Positions 3,425 through 15,090 of a stretch of 17,273 nucleotides of DNA are shown piece after piece. This stretch comes from an uncultured Erysipelotrichaceae bacterium (GTDB taxonomy: Bacteria; Bacillota_I; Bacilli_A; Erysipelotrichales; Erysipelotrichaceae). The notes beneath the pieces were generated by a model. The model saw only the letters and a list, made by a program, of their open reading frames with translations, did no database searches and was not told the origin of the DNA. The position numbers were made by a program, and so were the translations under genes. The first letter of the stretch is position 1, and every line of letters starts with the position of its first letter. Where the stretch lies: positions 1 through 17,273 of the forward strand of contig ONOV01000039.1 in NCBI GenBank assembly GCA_900319505.1. Reading direction: 5' to 3'.

Positions 3425-4711
3425 ATGAAGAAAGCACTCGTACTGGCGGGCGGAGGTACCCGTGGGGCTTACCAGGCCGGGGCGATCCGGGCCTGCATGG
3501 AAATGGGCAGAGATGACTGGGATCTTGTGACAGGTGTATCGGTAGGAGCTCTCAATGCGGCACTTGTGGTACAGGGAGATATCGACGGGATGATCGATAT
3601 GTATGATCATCTTTCCATGTCACAGATCATCAACGGGGCAAATCCGCTGGATTTCAATCTGAATACACTCGTGAAAGATAAGGAAATGCAGCAGACATTC
3701 CTTGCCTATATCAAAGACAGGGGACTGGATATTTCTCCTTTTATTCAATACGTACATGAAAAATACAACCCTGAGAAGTTTTTCGCATCCCGCATGGATT
3801 TCGGTCTGATTACCGCGACCCGCAAAGGCCATGAAGGCGTCTACGTCAATAAGGCCATGATGAAAGAACACGGTGAGGACTGGCTGATTGCCAGTGCTTC
3901 GGCCTATCCGGCTTTTCCGGTGAAGGTGATTGACGGGGTGGAGTATATTGACGGAGGCTATTTTGACAACTGTCCCATTGACTATGCCCTGCGCATGGGG
4001 GCAGAGGATGTGCTGGTACTGGACATGAACCATGATCCCAACCATCCCAACATGATCCGCCGTTCCAACATCCATTATGTATATCCCAAGAGTGAAACCG
4101 GTGATTTCCTGGATTTCTCCCATGAGAAGATTGTTCATCTGTATAAGCTCGGGGCAAATGATGTCCGCAAGATCTACGGGGTATATATGGGACTGAAATA
4201 TACGCTGCAGCCCTATGGCATGCCGCGGTTTTTCAAACGCTGGTATATAGAAGTGGAAAAGCTTGAGACACGTATCAAGCTTGCCAGCAATATCAATGAC
4301 CGGTTCCGCTCAGACCAGCTGATTACCGACCGTATTAAAGAAATCACGCGTCTGCCGTATCTGACGGACAGAGATTATTTTGAAGCGATGCTGGATCAGT
4401 GCCTGGATCTTTCCGGGGCGGATGAAGAGAAAGTATTTACGCTGGAAGAGGCCCGCAATATTGTCTTTGCGGCCTTTGCGGACTGTGTCAATGAGAACTT
4501 TGTTTCCCATAAGGCGTCATTACTGGACAAGGCGCGGTTTGTCGGCGGGATGGACCATAAGAGTGTCATCAGCCATATGATTCATGCGGCCTTCTATCCG
4601 GATCATCAGTTCTTTTCCGAGAATACGATCCTGACGCTGTATCCGTTTGAACAGTCCATTGCGGATTTTATTGTGATGTGGATGAAGGAGTTTTCCTTCC
4701 AGAACAGATAA
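3425..4711 (+). CDS. Patatin-like phospholipase family protein
   Basis: This 428-aa protein has a bacterial patatin domain, a Ser/Asp-dyad acyl hydrolase fold. The N-terminus carries the oxyanion-hole loop LAGGGTRGAYQAG (7-19), the nucleophile elbow GVSVG with Ser39, and the catalytic DGG with Asp176. The patatin part ends near residue 200. The remaining roughly 220 residues match no domain I can name and are rich in charged and aromatic residues. No signal peptide or membrane segment is visible, so a cytosolic or membrane-associated lipase or esterase is likely. The substrate is unknown. GGAG lies 9 nt before the ATG. It opens a co-directional run, and dut follows after 9 nt, so the two are surely co-transcribed. 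The family call is firm; the physiological role is not known. Confidence 0.85.
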   Translation: MKKALVLAGGGTRGAYQAGAIRACMEMGRDDWDLVTGVSVGALNAALVVQGDIDGMIDMYDHLSMSQIINGANPLDFNLNTLVKDKEMQQTFLAYIKDRGLDISPFIQYVHEKYNPEKFFASRMDFGLITATRKGHEGVYVNKAMMKEHGEDWLIASASAYPAFPVKVIDGVEYIDGGYFDNCPIDYALRMGAEDVLVLDMNHDPNHPNMIRRSNIHYVYPKSETGDFLDFSHEKIVHLYKLGANDVRKIYGVYMGLKYTLQPYGMPRFFKRWYIEVEKLETRIKLASNINDRFRSDQLITDRIKEITRLPYLTDRDYFEAMLDQCLDLSGADEEKVFTLEEARNIVFAAFADCVNENFVSHKASLLDKARFVGGMDHKSVISHMIHAAFYPDHQFFSENTILTLYPFEQSIADFIVMWMKEFSFQNR

Positions 4712-9922: not shown

Positions 9923-9996
9923 TGTGCCCGATGGGGCTCGAACCCACAACCTTTTGCTTCGGAGGCAAATACGCTATCCAGTTGCGCTACGGGCAC
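9923..9996 (-). tRNA. tRNA-Arg (anticodon CCG)
   Basis: A full cloverleaf can be drawn on the minus strand: acceptor GTGCCCG/CGGGCAC, D-arm GCGC...GCGT with GG in the loop, anticodon stem TTTGC/GCAAA with loop CTCCGAA (anticodon CCG at 9960-9962, reading CGG), and T-arm GTGGG/CCCAT with loop TTCGAGC. The discriminator is A. The next bases are CCT, so CCA is not encoded and must be added after RNase Z-type processing. It has its own promoter and terminator. Confidence 0.97.
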
Positions 9997-10882: not shown

Positions 10883-10910
10883 TTGACAATATGAAAAAGA
10901 AGCGTAAAGT
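10883..10910 (+). promoter_or_regulatory. Promoter of the cysteine ABC-transporter operon
   Basis: Perfect -35 TTGACA (10883-10888), a 16-nt spacer, -10 TAAAGT (10905-10910). The predicted start near 10917 gives a leader RNA of about 174 nt before the first transporter gene. Confidence 0.75.
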
Positions 10911-10935
10911 ATTGGACAAGGAAAGGGGAACAGCC

Positions 10936-11001
10936 ATGAAGATGTACAGTGCAGTCTGTTGTATGTTTGAACATAAAACTGAATTTCTGCATACGTACTG
11001 A
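10936..11001 (+). CDS. Leader peptide with tandem Cys codons (attenuator peptide)
   Basis: A 21-codon frame, ATG 10936 to TGA 10999-11001, is preceded by AAAGGGG at an ideal 7-nt distance. The peptide begins MKMYSAVCCMF; Cys8 and Cys9 are adjacent TGT codons (10957-10962). It lies between the operon promoter and an intrinsic terminator. Its codons overlap RNA segments that can pair alternatively with each other and with the terminator. The small size, strong ribosome site, tandem codons for a normally rare amino acid and position are those of a classical attenuation leader peptide. I do not recognise it as a described peptide. The downstream receptor resembles a cysteine-binding protein, which agrees with Cys being the sensed residue. 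Confidence 0.75.
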   Translation: MKMYSAVCCMFEHKTEFLHTY

Positions 11002-11072
11002 GCAGGCTCCTTTTTCGACACGTGGAATACATGAAGTGAATGGCAGATGTGCAGGCGTACATCTGTTTTTTT
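10960..11072 (+). promoter_or_regulatory. Putative cysteine-responsive transcription attenuator
   Basis: Four RNA segments form exclusive pairs. 1:2 is 10960-10966 with 10989-10995 (7 bp, two G-U). 2:3 is 10986-10993 with 11048-11055 (8 bp, two G-U). 3:4 is 11044-11050 with 11059-11065 (7 Watson-Crick bp, the terminator, followed by T7). Segment 1 covers the second Cys codon. A ribosome stalled on Cys codons would mask segment 1 and free 2 to pair with 3, so the operon is read. A ribosome reaching the stop at 10999 would cover segment 2 and allow 3:4, so transcription ends. Pairings were found by eye. Confidence 0.65.
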
Positions 11073-11077
11073 GTTTT
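11044..11077 (+). terminator. Attenuator terminator
   Basis: CAGATGT (11044-11050), an 8-nt loop and ACATCTG (11059-11065), then seven T (11066-11072) and GTTTT. It stands upstream of the first transporter gene rather than at an operon end, so it must be regulated or leaky. Confidence 0.85.
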
Positions 11078-11090
11078 ATAAAGGAGGCTT

Positions 11091-11750
11091 ATGAACTGGA
11101 CGATTATGCAGTCATACTGGCCGCTGTTTCTGGCGGCTGCCGGGGTTACCCTGCGGATTTCCTTCTTCGGCATTCTGCTGGCGGTGATCCTGGGCATGGT
11201 GATCAGTCTGATCCAGTATGCAAAGATACCGGTATTGAGACAGATCGCATCTGTCTATATTGAACTGAGCCGCAATACACCGCTGCTGGTGCAGCTGTTC
11301 TTCATCTACTTTGGTCTGCCTAAGATCGGGGTGGTGCTGAGCGGGGAAGCCAGTGCGATTGCCGGGGTTGTGTTTCTGGGCGGCAGCTACTTTGCGGAAA
11401 ACTTCAGATCAGGTCTGGAAGCAGTGGCCCTGAGTCAGAAAGAATCGGCTATGTCGCTTGGCATGAGCAGTGCACAGACGATGCGCTATGTCATTCTGCC
11501 TCAAGCCTTAAGGGTGGCTCTGCCGGGCTTCTTTGCCAATGTGATCTTTCTGATCAAGGAAACTTCAGTTGTCTCTGCCATTGCCGTACCGGATCTGATG
11601 TATGTGGCAAAGGACCTGATGGGCAATGACTACCGTACGGCGGAAGCGCTGGGGATGCTTGTCATCTTCTATCTGATCATCATCCTGCCGGTGACAATAC
11701 TGGCCTATGTTCTGGAAAGGAGGCTGCGGTATGGGAAAGTCAGGCATTGA
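11091..11750 (+). CDS. Amino-acid (probably cysteine/cystine) ABC transporter permease, HisM/GlnP family
   Basis: This 219-aa inner-membrane permease has about five hydrophobic segments, starting with residues 12-37 (LFLAAAGVTLRISFFGILLAVILGMV). The EAA-type coupling loop follows SQKESAMSLGMSSAQTMRYV (about 116-135) and ILPQALR. RNTPLLVQLFFIYFGLP is typical of polar amino-acid permeases. It is the first transporter gene after the attenuator. AAGGAGG (11081-11087) is strong but only 3 nt from this ATG. A second in-frame ATG at 11106 is 18 nt away, so 11091 is kept. It overlaps the second permease by 20 nt, and the two presumably form the heterodimeric channel. Confidence 0.92.
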   Translation: MNWTIMQSYWPLFLAAAGVTLRISFFGILLAVILGMVISLIQYAKIPVLRQIASVYIELSRNTPLLVQLFFIYFGLPKIGVVLSGEASAIAGVVFLGGSYFAENFRSGLEAVALSQKESAMSLGMSSAQTMRYVILPQALRVALPGFFANVIFLIKETSVVSAIAVPDLMYVAKDLMGNDYRTAEALGMLVIFYLIIILPVTILAYVLERRLRYGKVRH

Positions 11751-12405
11751 GCTTTTAGCCAACTACAAGTACTGGATCCGGCTTCTGGAGGGATTATGGG
11801 TGACAATCCGGATTGCGCTGATCTCAACCGGATTATCCATGGTGCTGGGGACGCTGCTTGGTATGGTCATGACGGTCAGGAACAGGATCATCACGGTCAT
11901 AACGCAGATCTATCTCGGCTTTGTCAGAATCATGCCGCAGCTTGTTCTGCTGTTTATCGTCTTCTATGGCTTTTCAAGATGGACAGGCCTGATGATGGAT
12001 GCAGAGACAAGCGCAATTGTGGTATTCACCTTCTGGGGAACAGCCGAAACGGCGGACCTTGTCAGAGGTGCCCTGGAGTCCATTCCATCCCACCAGTATG
12101 AATCCGCCTATGCTCTTGGCATGAATCGGAAACAGACGTTCCGGTATGTAATACTGCCTCAGACCATGAGACGGCTGCTGCCGCCTTTGATCAATCTGAT
12201 TACCCGTATGATCAAGACGACTTCGCTTGTAGAGATCATCGGTCTTGTTGAAGTGCTTAAGACCGGTCAGCAGATTATTGATGCCAACCGGATGAAATAC
12301 GCAGATGGTGCTTTCTGGATCTATGCAGCAGTATTTGTGCTGTACTTCCTGATCTGCTGGCCGATCAGCAGCTATGCAAAGCATCTGGAAAAGAAGTGGA
12401 GGTGA
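11731..12405 (+). CDS. Amino-acid (probably cysteine/cystine) ABC transporter permease, second subunit
   Basis: This 224-aa permease is of the same HisM/GlnP family. Hydrophobic segments start at about residue 22 ([20 protein letters not shown]), and the coupling loop is [20 protein letters not shown] followed by [14 protein letters not shown] 11731 was chosen because AAAGGAGG lies 7 nt upstream; the in-frame ATG at 11707 has no such site. Translation begins inside the previous gene, a sign of coupling and stoichiometric production. The ATPase gene follows 7 nt after the stop. Confidence 0.92.
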
Positions 12406-12412
12406 AAGGAAG

Positions 12413-13186
12413 ATGGAAAATAGAATACAGCTTTCCGTAAAGGATCTGGTGAAATCATATGACGGCAGTAGCGAAGTGCTCAACGGCATCAGCTTTGATG
12501 TCCATCAGGGTGAAGTCGTTGTCATTCTGGGACCGTCAGGCTGCGGCAAGTCTACTCTGCTCAGATGCCTGAATGGGCTGGAAACATATCAGTCCGGTTC
12601 CATTACCCTGGATGGTCAGCCTATTACGCATGGCGGAAAAAACATGAATGCCATGCGCCAGCGGATTGGGATGGTCTTTCAGAGCTATGATCTTTTCCCG
12701 CATTATACCGTGCTGGACAATATCACGCTGGCCCCGCTCAAAGTAGCGCATCGGCCTAAGAAAGAGACGGAAGCCGAAGCAAGAGCTTTATTGAAAAGAG
12801 TCGGGCTGGAAGATAAGGCGGATGCCTATCCCAATGAACTGTCCGGCGGACAGAAACAGAGAGTGGCGATCTGCCGGGCGCTGATCATGAAGCCGGAAGT
12901 GATGCTGTTTGATGAAGTGACGGCAGCGCTTGATCCGGAGATGGTTCATGAAGTGCTCAATGTCATGATGGAGCTGGCTGACCAGGGTATGACCATGGTC
13001 ATTGTCACCCATGAAATGAAGTTTGCCGAAGCGATCGGTGACAGAGTGCTGTTTCTGGATGGCGGCAGGATCGTGGAAGAAAATACCCCGGAAGGCTTCT
13101 TCCATCACCCCAAGACGGAGCGGGCCGATGCCTTCCTGCATACATTTACCTATACAAGAAAAAGAACTGAGAAAAGTGCTCAGTAA
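12413..13186 (+). CDS. Amino-acid (probably cysteine/cystine) ABC transporter ATP-binding protein
   Basis: This 257-aa cytosolic ATPase of the GlnQ/HisP family powers the importer. Walker A is GPSGCGKST (40-48), the Q-loop [10 protein letters not shown], the ABC signature LSGGQKQR (143-150), Walker B MLFDE (Asp167, Glu168) and the switch His200 in VTHEM. The D-loop stretch reads [10 protein letters not shown], with Val in place of the usual Pro. ATG 12413 was chosen because the family's N-terminus begins there; GGAGG is 10 nt upstream and overlaps the permease stop. An in-frame ATG at 12374 would add 13 residues from within the permease gene. Confidence 0.95.
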
Positions 13187-13203: not shown

Positions 13204-14073
13204 ATGTCACATACAGAGCTGATCAAAGGTTTACTCGCAGGATTTTTAACAGTAGGACTGGCCGGCTGCGGCAGCACGGCAGCCGCCAGATCCGCTTCTT
13301 CCACTTCTTCCAGTGATACAGGAACGGTATTCCGTACGGTGGATGAAATCAAGAAAGACGGTACGTTAAGAGTTGCGGTATTCAGTGATAAAGCACCGTT
13401 CGGCTATGTGGATGAGAATGGTGATTACCAGGGCTATGATGTATATTATGCCAAGCGCATTGCCAAGGATCTCGGGGTTGATGTTGAATTTACCCCGGTA
13501 TCACCGAGCGCCCGTATCGATATTGTCAATTCCGGACAGGTGGATATTACCCTTGCCAACTTTACGGTCACAGATGAAAGAGCCAGTCAGGTTGATTTCA
13601 CAGCCCCTTATATGAAAGTTGCTTTAGGTGTCGTTTCCCCCGACAGTGCGGTGATTACGGATGTCAATGATCTCAAAGAGCTGATTGTTGCCAAAGGCAC
13701 AACGGCTGAAACCTACTTTGAAGAAAACTATCCGGATGTCAAACTCATCAAGTACGATGAATATGCGGATGCCTACAATGCTTTACTGGATGGCAGAGGA
13801 CCTGCCTTCTCCACCGATAATACGGAAGTGCTGGCATGGGCCAAGGCCAATCCTGGCTATACCGTAGGGATTACCCAGCTTGGAGATTATGATGCCATTG
13901 CTCCGGCTGTTGCCAAAGGCAATAAGACCCTGGCTGATTTCCTGAATGATGAAATTCAGACTCTGGGTGATGAACAGTTCTTCCATAAGGATTATGAGGA
14001 AACCCTGCGTCCGGTCTATGGCGATGCGGCTGATCCGGATGAGATTGTGGTTGAATACGGCAAGATTGAATGA
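13204..14073 (+). CDS. CjaA-like cysteine-binding lipoprotein (ABC transporter receptor)
   Basis: This 289-aa family 3 solute-binding protein has a hydrophobic signal ending in the lipobox LAGC (19-22), so Cys22 is lipidated and the mature protein sits outside the membrane. A Ser/Thr/Ala-rich linker follows. The binding domain reads LRVAVFSDKAPFGYVDENG, QGYD, AKRIAKDLG, DITLANFTVT, VDFTAPYMKVALGV, KGTTAETYFEENYP and GDEQFFHKDYEETL. From memory, this runs parallel to Campylobacter CjaA, a cysteine-specific receptor (VAVFGDKPPFGYVDE, VDFCLPYMKVALGV, EQFFHKAYDETL). That makes cysteine or cystine the most likely ligand. AAGGAGG lies 8 nt before the ATG, and it is the last gene of the operon, before a terminator. 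Confidence 0.9.
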   Translation: MSHTELIKGLLAGFLTVGLAGCGSTAAARSASSTSSSDTGTVFRTVDEIKKDGTLRVAVFSDKAPFGYVDENGDYQGYDVYYAKRIAKDLGVDVEFTPVSPSARIDIVNSGQVDITLANFTVTDERASQVDFTAPYMKVALGVVSPDSAVITDVNDLKELIVAKGTTAETYFEENYPDVKLIKYDEYADAYNALLDGRGPAFSTDNTEVLAWAKANPGYTVGITQLGDYDAIAPAVAKGNKTLADFLNDEIQTLGDEQFFHKDYEETLRPVYGDAADPDEIVVEYGKIE

Positions 14074-14158: not shown

Positions 14159-14175
14159 TCTGAATGGAGGAAGCT

Positions 14176-15090
14176 ATGGAAGTTTATGAAAAAGTAGATG
14201 AACTGCCGCAGGGGCAGGCAGATCTTCGTTATCTTCAGCATGGCTGTATGGTGCTGGAAGGCGGCGCATGGCGCGGTCTCTATACCCAGGGGGTATTGGA
14301 TGCCCTGATGGAAAATGATATCAATCTGGACTGCACCATCGGCGTATCGGCCGGGGCCATGTCAGGACTGGCCTATGTCAGCGGTCAGATCGGCTTTCCC
14401 GGCCGGATGAATCTTACCTACCGCAATGATCAGAATTACTGCGGCATCGGGGCTTTGAAAAAGGATCACGGCATTACCGGGTTTACATATGCTTTTACGG
14501 AACTGTTTGATAAGGGCGGTTTTGCCAGACAGGATTTTCTGAACAGTCCCCGCAGATTTGTGGCTGTCGCAACGGATATCGATACGGGAAAGCCGGTTTT
14601 CTTTGAAAAGGGAAAGTGTCCGGATATCTTTAAAGCTGTACAGGCAAGTGCTACGGTACCGTATGTATCCGAGCCGGTGGAGATTGAAGGCAGGAAGTAT
14701 CTGGATGGCGGCCTTGGGGTAAAGGTGCCGTATGAATGGGCTTTGAAGGAAGGCTATGAGAAGATTGTTGTCATCCGCACGCGGGACAGAGACTACCGCA
14801 AGCCGGTGAAGAAGCCGTCAGGCATCAATCACATGTATCGCAAAGAACCGCAGGCCATGGAAGATCTGGCAGAAGAGGCACCGCGCTATAATATCTCACT
14901 GGACAGGCTTGACATGCTGGAAAAGAAAAAAAGACTGTATGTCATTGCCCCTTCAAAGCCGATCACGATCAGAAGGTTTGAAGATGATATGAACAAGCTC
15001 GGCGATCTGTACTGGCAGGGGTATGAAGATGGAAAGAATGAAATCAGGGGGCTTAAAGCATACCTTGGAATCAGCGCGCAGGAAGAGTGA
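14176..15090 (+). CDS. Patatin-like phospholipase family protein (YjjU-like)
   Basis: This 304-aa protein has a patatin acyl-hydrolase fold. The oxyanion loop LEGGAWRGLYTQG (27-39) has Ala31 in place of the third Gly, as I recall for YjjU-type patatins of Firmicutes. The nucleophile is Ser58 in GVSAG and the partner Asp177 in DGG. FVAVATDIDTGKP and the C-terminal LYVIAPSKPITIRRFE are also YjjU-like. No signal peptide or membrane segment is seen. It is a different subfamily from the longer patatin at 3425. The ATG at 14176 was chosen because GGAGG lies 5 nt upstream; the in-frame ATG at 14164 overlaps that site. The substrate is unknown. Confidence 0.85.
   Translation: MEVYEKVDELPQGQADLRYLQHGCMVLEGGAWRGLYTQGVLDALMENDINLDCTIGVSAGAMSGLAYVSGQIGFPGRMNLTYRNDQNYCGIGALKKDHGITGFTYAFTELFDKGGFARQDFLNSPRRFVAVATDIDTGKPVFFEKGKCPDIFKAVQASATVPYVSEPVEIEGRKYLDGGLGVKVPYEWALKEGYEKIVVIRTRDRDYRKPVKKPSGINHMYRKEPQAMEDLAEEAPRYNISLDRLDMLEKKKRLYVIAPSKPITIRRFEDDMNKLGDLYWQGYEDGKNEIRGLKAYLGISAQEE

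Follow-up and report, generated by a model that had tools for sequence, protein, structure and literature searches.

Cys-codon leaders ahead of a CjaA-like importer operon in Erysipelotrichales: a probable ribosome-mediated transcription attenuator

The leader element and its proposed mechanism

The operon for a CjaA-like ABC importer in an uncultured Erysipelotrichaceae bacterium is in all likelihood controlled by a ribosome-mediated transcription attenuator of the trp/his type, which would sense charged tRNA-Cys; very probably the leader switches the importer on under cysteine shortage. The DNA analysed (the window, a stretch of 17,273 nucleotides) contains a short frame with two tandem Cys codons, followed by an intrinsic terminator and the first structural gene. 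The combination of signal, target and group is, as far as searched, new and has unusually clear comparative support, while the kind of attenuator is already known. Taken by itself the window leader is weak evidence; the comparison with relatives decides.

The features of the element and of the operon are presented in Table 1. A first-pass annotation made from the DNA letters had described this leader, and the observation is real: the 21-codon frame and its TGT TGT codons are read directly in the sequence, and the terminator ahead of the first structural gene is present with a longer stem than described (10 base pairs found instead of 7, with a loop of 4 and -13.4 kcal/mol). A pattern scan draws this terminator with 11 pairs and finds two terminator-like sites in the region vs a shuffle mean of 0.5. 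The promoter, which had been called strong, has a good consensus match, but the promoter scan of the leader region gives one site vs a shuffle mean of 0.9, by itself within chance. Similarly, the Shine–Dalgarno-like site and its spacing are graded good and not ideal. Transcription presumably starts near 10917. In the Rfam search of the whole window the leader contained neither a T-box (the RF00230 gathering threshold is not reached) nor another Rfam element; the sole match in the window is a tRNA gene at 9923-9996 (- strand).

Table 1. Features of the leader and of the importer operon in the window
Feature	Position	Strand	Remarks
Sigma-70-like promoter, TTGACA-16-TAAAGT	10883..10910	+	10/12 positions match
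Shine–Dalgarno-like AGGGGA of the leader frame	10924..10929	+	Read in the sequence; 6 nt ahead of ATG 10936
Leader frame, MKMYSAVCCMFEHKTEFLHTY and stop	10936..11001	+	21 codons and TGA; counterparts ahead of 10 of the order's 13 remaining orthologous operons
Tandem control codons TGT TGT (Cys8 Cys9)	10957..10962	+	Read in the sequence
Segment 1	10944..10954	+	Alternative to the 10960-10966 of the first-pass annotation; paired with 10987-10998 in the minimum-energy fold
Segment 2	10986..10998	+	1:2 pairing in the minimum-energy fold; 2:3 duplex -12.0 kcal/mol
Segment 3	11043..11055	+	Terminator 5' arm with the loop bases next to it; can pair with segment 2 instead
Intrinsic terminator	11043..11072	+	Stem 11043-11066, T7 11066-11072
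Ribosome-binding site AGGAGG of the first structural gene	11082..11087	+	Read in the sequence
Polar amino acid ABC permease 1	11091..11750	+	BPD_transp_1, HEQRo_perm_3TM
ABC permease 2	11707..12405	+	Family searches; true start may be internal to the frame
Amino acid ABC ATPase	12374..13186	+	Family searches; true start may be internal to the frame
CjaA-like substrate-binding lipoprotein (family 3 binding protein)	13204..14073	+	Family and PDB searches

According to the proposed mechanism, a ribosome would begin the 21-codon leader soon after RNA polymerase has started near 10917. With ample Cys-tRNA, it would get to the stop codon (10999-11001) and mask segment 2; segment 3 would then pair inside the terminator stem and transcription would stop. 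With scarce Cys-tRNA, the ribosome would stall on the TGT TGT codons and mask segment 1, and the free segment 2 would pair with the terminator's 5' arm (2:3 pairing), so that the polymerase could read on through the genes for the permeases, the ATPase and the CjaA-like protein. Without any translation of the leader, the 1:2 pairing would form, and then the terminator.

The CjaA-like importer

By sequence, the best PDB matches of the binding protein are 1xt8 (E 2.7e-81), which we take to be Campylobacter CjaA, and 2yjp (E 3.5e-70), presumably the gonococcal counterpart of the meningococcal cysteine transport system NMB0787-0789; the next match has an E-value of only 5.3e-36. These two matches support the earlier reading of the operon as a CjaA-like cysteine importer. 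In the accessible parts of the respective papers, CjaA is described as binding cysteine with a Kd of 0.5 uM (PMC9040844) and the NMB0787-0789 system as importing cysteine (PMC6299482); as of 2022, the function of the CjaA-type importer was still to be tested and its distribution was sparse and scattered (PMC9040844). As none of the four transporter proteins reaches an NCBIfam equivalog cut-off among the matches listed, cysteine is named here as the putative substrate. Judging from these homologies the operon is likely a cysteine importer, and the control codons would match the amino acid that it handles.

The order of the four genes is shared by 10 of the 11 loci compared, the exception being L009 (loci are numbered with the prefix L), where the binding-protein gene lies upstream. 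In the window's genus the importer is patchy: with permease 1 as the query, an ortholog (E <= 1e-60) is found in 10 of 70 genomes, including the window's own. This distribution suggests loss or horizontal transfer.

Cys leaders in the order Erysipelotrichales

The permease 1 search matched 14 of 315 genomes of the order, and the upstream regions of all 14 orthologous operons were inspected for an ATG frame with adjacent Cys codons and, after it, a terminator-like hairpin. Eleven of them, the window included, have this arrangement, vs 1 of 560 shuffles; L029, L030 and L038 do not. Many of the genomes compared throughout are metagenome bins or fragmented assemblies, some of which may be misplaced. 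The check proposed earlier, namely that the Cys codons should be kept in relatives, is thus strongly passed: the leaders contain two to nine Cys (window 2; L028 and L037 3; L023, L024 and L036 4; L025 5; L026 and L027 6; L035 7; L034 9), the window leader having the fewest of the eleven. They comprise ten distinct peptides, those of L024 and L036 being identical. Examples are MTAYRISAKCCSSCCCRTYAVSVCHAEMLF (L027), MKKFLMSCCCGCCCEMYDGTSLCSALIRRN (L035) and MTAYRMIHNTCSNACCCCCEKSSASLCCAHCLL (L034); farther off are MNLFTIRFSVSCCCMPSGPEVRSGIFGML (L037, another genus) and MTMKNVCCMLKKKNLTEHYIFMDIKTC (L028, another family). Cys is the sole shared feature noticed among leaders which otherwise differ, e.g. 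SCCCGCCC, CCSSCCC and ACCCCC.

When upstream regions of this sort are shuffled with their dinucleotides kept (7000 shuffles), 8.3% contain a Cys-Cys ATG frame. The frame with a later terminator is found in 11 of 1514 half-overlapping real 350-nt stretches, one of which is the present leader and some of which are overlapping copies; these background rates are drawn from the fetched loci, with no genome-wide scan behind them. Concerning the window leader alone, neither the 2:3 duplex, i.e. the antiterminator (p 0.236), nor the 1:2 pairing (p 0.387) is beyond chance. A random two-Cys frame before an unrelated terminator could be argued from the frequency of such frames in shuffles and from the poverty in Cys of the window leader; yet this reading is contradicted by the comparison, in which 11 of 14 orthologous operons share the arrangement, and is extremely improbable. 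For the window alone it could hold if the leader had lost its function.

It is also conceivable, at a very low probability, that the small peptide encoded by the Cys-rich frame is itself the working product, binding metal or acting in redox reactions, and that the terminator only marks the border of the operon or stops transcription in part. The leader of L034, with nine Cys in 33 codons, and the CC and CxC patterns, which could bind metal, are in line with such a peptide; however, the number and spacing of the Cys vary between leaders, and no other residue is seen to be kept across the set. Moreover, the C-terminal HAVG block conserved in five relatives is accounted for by RNA pairing, the leaders of L114 and L154 (from the second sample, below) are alike in the Cys part and divergent downstream, and none of the ten leader peptides tried has an NCBIfam match.

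Beyond these operons, the three loci added by a sample of 392 genomes of the phylum (L039-L041) have no such Cys leader, and no clear one was seen by eye in the named loci L002, L003 and L005-L013, among the matches listed. A covariance model of five leaders (R1) was run against the 70 genomes of the genus; under the stricter filters its strong matches are the five training loci only. The best 7 of its 18 weaker matches by E-value (0.004-0.16) were inspected. Two of these lie in truncated loci and are placed roughly, and L080 has a Cys-Cys frame without a terminator by the definition above. Among these 7 of 18 there is no sign that the subtype of the five leaders controls other genes in the genus.

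Leaders in Clostridia-like loci

A second group was entered via L004 (Clostridiales). Matches were found in 23 of 300 genomes of its family and 29 of 391 of its class; at the genus level, one genus gave 4 of 32 and another 3 of 9. These samples overlap. Eleven of the 55 distinct Clostridia-like loci have the Cys-Cys frame and terminator, vs 2 of 660 shuffles, and 44 do not; two more (L105 and L112) resemble leaders when read by eye. Gene starts in these loci were placed by motif, the upstream stretches of L103, L130 and L139 are short, and the start of L131 is uncertain. The Rfam run on the 44 loci lacking the arrangement found a T-box in one, before the orthologous importer (L143:2236-2478, - strand). 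In the two samples pooled, 22 of 69 loci have a terminator-like hairpin after the Cys codons, vs 3 of 1220 shuffles.

In the Clostridia-like leaders, a segment of the CTCCCGGGC type lies a few bases past the Cys codons and is matched by the arm GCCCGGGAG of the terminator; all eight aligned leaders have the core TCCCGG paired. The first-pass annotation had also called for compensatory changes: in the eight leaders, both partners have changed at 3 of 11 pairs, but the support is thin, as 58 of 500 shuffles equal it.

A second leader subtype can be recognised here (L101, L108, L112, L113, L114, L138, L152 and L154), in which the Cys codons precede the CTCCCGGGC-like segment with its match to the terminator arm. 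Most of its members have, further on, a GGGG-rich segment which, as drawn by eye, is able to pair with segment 2. This segment could be an anti-antiterminator.

Pairing of the leader segments

All three pairings named in the first-pass annotation can be drawn in the window leader, but the minimum-energy fold favours a different 1:2 pairing (10944-10954 with 10987-10998) and also pairs the leader Shine–Dalgarno region (10921-10929) with 11008-11016. The exact 1:2 pairing is uncertain. The fold has a z of -2.53, and 2 of 200 shuffles are equally stable.

In five relatives (L023, L024, L025, L026 and L036) four blocks are kept: AAGGRAGACCGTATGA-like, YCATGCGGTCGGAA, ACGGGYGCATG and CCCGTTTT. They include the leader's Shine–Dalgarno site and start (GACCGTATG), the leader end (YCATGCGGTC) and the 5' and 3' arms of the terminator (ACGGGYGCATG and CCCGT), and they allow 1:2, 2:3 and 3:4 pairing. 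GACCGTATG is complementary to CATGCGGTC over 9 bases, with one extra in some of the five, and CATGCG is complementary to CGCATG (in L025, CATGC to GCATG). Read from these complementarities, segment 1 of the five relatives appears to be the leader's own start site and not the control codons, a twist on the trp scheme. The 2:3 complementarity has a combined p of 1e-7 over 12 leaders and of 2e-6 over 12 Clostridia-like leaders, values which are merely indicative, the rows being related.

The ribosome footprint was assumed to reach from 13 bases 5' of the P codon to about 10 bases 3' of the A codon. With this footprint, a ribosome at Cys8/9 of the window leader masks most of 10944-10954 and frees 10986-10998, and one at the leader stop masks most of 10986-10998, as the model would have it. 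At equilibrium, with the RNA starting at the presumed 10917, the terminator has a probability of 1.00 with the ribosome at Cys8 or Cys9 and of 0.51 at the stop, the opposite of the model; the value at the stop is 0.94-0.96 when the RNA starts at least 11 bases earlier. As this fold runs against the model, our confidence in the attenuator is slightly lowered. In most other leaders the terminator is near 1 with the ribosome at any codon; L025, L027 and L034 vary. Attenuation depends on the order in which the RNA is made, which equilibrium folding disregards, and in the control, full-length E. coli trpL under the same folding, the terminator stays at 0.96.

In a transcript truncated ahead of the 3' arm, the window leader has an antitermination value of 0.17 for a ribosome on the Cys codons and of 0.00 for one at the stop. 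The trpL control gives 0.28-0.60 at the Trp codons vs 0.00, and L035 gives 0.72-0.78 vs 0.10; several other leaders are unchanged or go the other way (L036 and L026). Over 12 leaders, antitermination in the cut transcripts is alike at the stall and at the stop (Wilcoxon p 0.57). No switch common to the leaders emerged from the thermodynamic ribosome walk, and exact pairings are therefore not claimed. In L027, L034, L035, L037, L028 and L004, most or all of the best segment 2 is 5' of a ribosome placed at the stop codon, and therefore the trp geometry is not transferable unchanged. Of the trp/his logic put forward initially, the geometry and the four-block layout of the five relatives stand, but the folding switch is not seen and is reversed in the window at equilibrium.

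The lack of a clean 2:3 switch in the folding is compatible with another route, in which Cys-tRNA is sensed mainly via translation coupling, Rho or RNA decay and not via the named antiterminator vs the intrinsic terminator; the mycobacterial cys leaders, which lack conserved terminators in the accessible text of PMC1262725, point the same way. Against it stand the pooled excess of terminator-like hairpins after Cys codons (22/69 vs 3/1220) and the complementarity of segment 2 to the terminator 5' arm, which is above shuffles in aggregate. We consider this route unlikely, if somewhat less so than the working peptide, and keep to attenuation at the intrinsic terminator as the preferred reading.

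Codon choice, T-boxes and cysS

The leaders of both groups favour TGT over TGC when compared with long stop-free stretches from their own loci: the ratio is 33:20 vs 131:220 in the order (p 8e-4) and 39:26 vs 143:287 in the Clostridia-like group (p 5e-5); these p values are a guide only, the rows being related and the background being any long stop-free stretch.

In Clostridium thermobutyricum a T-box (113.6 bits) is found ahead of the orthologous operon, with the letters UGC at the place of the Rfam consensus uuc, which is presumably the specifier. T-boxes also precede cysS in 2 of the 10 cysS loci searched in the window's genus (L048:1276-1469 and L054:1273-1466), and both tRNA-reading devices are thus present in the window's lineage. 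Concerning cysS as a further target of the leader, a Cys-Cys frame is found in none of 30 upstream regions of the genus (28 full length; 70 genomes with a match), a result that doubles as a real-sequence control for the importer leaders.

We regard as evenly balanced the wider proposal that the Cys attenuators of CjaA-type importer operons are a recurrent and fast-changing class in Bacillota, with multiple origins and swapping with Cys T-boxes, and that one subgroup, with segment 1 on the ribosome-binding site and start of the leader, gauges both initiation and Cys-tRNA.

Comparison with known systems

In Bacillota, CymR, SAM and T-box elements are the usual explanations of cysteine control. 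The ORFs of mycobacterial cys leaders are reportedly leaderless, going by the title of a 2020 study by Canestrari that is cited in PMC13236596. The T-box (RF00230) likewise reads tRNA charging and differs in that the RNA binds the tRNA directly.

As far as the accessible parts of the sources go, leader-peptide attenuators for other amino acids are known in the same phylum: a Leu attenuator of the Staphylococcus aureus ilv-leu operon, ribosome-mediated and backed by suppressor mutations (PMC5794164), and His attenuators in bacilli (PMC2965389) and in six Erysipelotrichales species (PMC9413887). The His attenuators resemble the window leader in having a short frame, a run of control codons, and a terminator and antiterminator, in belonging to the same bacterial order, and in having the T-box as an alternative (PMC9413887, PMC2965389); they differ in that His codons precede his operons or hisS paralogs, whereas in the window Cys codons precede an importer. 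The ilv-leu system is also ribosome-mediated transcription attenuation in Bacillota, but the amino acid is Leu and the operon biosynthetic (PMC5794164).

Two systems with Cys codons are described in the accessible parts of the papers on other phyla. The uORFC-8-2 motif before cysS of Rhodobacterales shares with the window leader the tandem Cys codons in a uORF and the intrinsic terminator (PMC8632094); it differs in belonging to Alphaproteobacteria, in preceding the gene of cysteinyl-tRNA synthetase and in being one conserved RNA motif, whereas the window element precedes an ABC importer. Polycysteine leaders of actinobacterial (mycobacterial) cys operons likewise have, ahead of cysteine genes, a short ORF with Cys codons in runs (PMC1262725); unlike the window leader, which has a terminator and a Shine–Dalgarno site, they have no conserved terminator hairpin in that text and precede biosynthesis genes. 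The window leader was assigned to neither type: an ABC importer and not cysS lies downstream, which rules out uORFC-8-2, and the presence of both an intrinsic terminator and a Shine–Dalgarno site rules out the mycobacterial type.

The literature search, with subscription papers and preprints mostly outside its scope, found no Cys leader-peptide attenuator in Bacillota and none before a cysteine importer. The earlier suggestion that such an attenuator would be new in this group consequently holds for cysteine, as far as searched, but not for attenuators of this kind in general, the Leu and His examples having been described in Bacillota and the latter in Erysipelotrichales too (accessible parts of PMC5794164, PMC2965389 and PMC9413887).

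The Cys-codon attenuator would be a further RNA route to cysteine control in Bacillota and would link the little-studied CjaA-type importer to cysteine limitation. One operon exchanging a T-box and a leader peptide which read the same signal would be a natural experiment. A cheap annotation rule is also suggested: to look for short poly-Cys frames ahead of amino acid ABC operons.

Neighbouring genes

In L038 and L151, which have no Cys leader, the gene just 5' of the permease reads by eye like the C-terminus of an O-acetylhomoserine sulfhydrylase (MetY). A MetI-like permease, also read by eye, is located just 5' of the importer permease in L006, L007 and L153. These MetY-like and MetI-like neighbours fit a role connected with sulfur amino acids. 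In the window, a patatin-like phospholipase with DUF6363 (14164-15090) directly follows the importer operon, and a second patatin-type protein, as read by eye, is found at 3425-4711.
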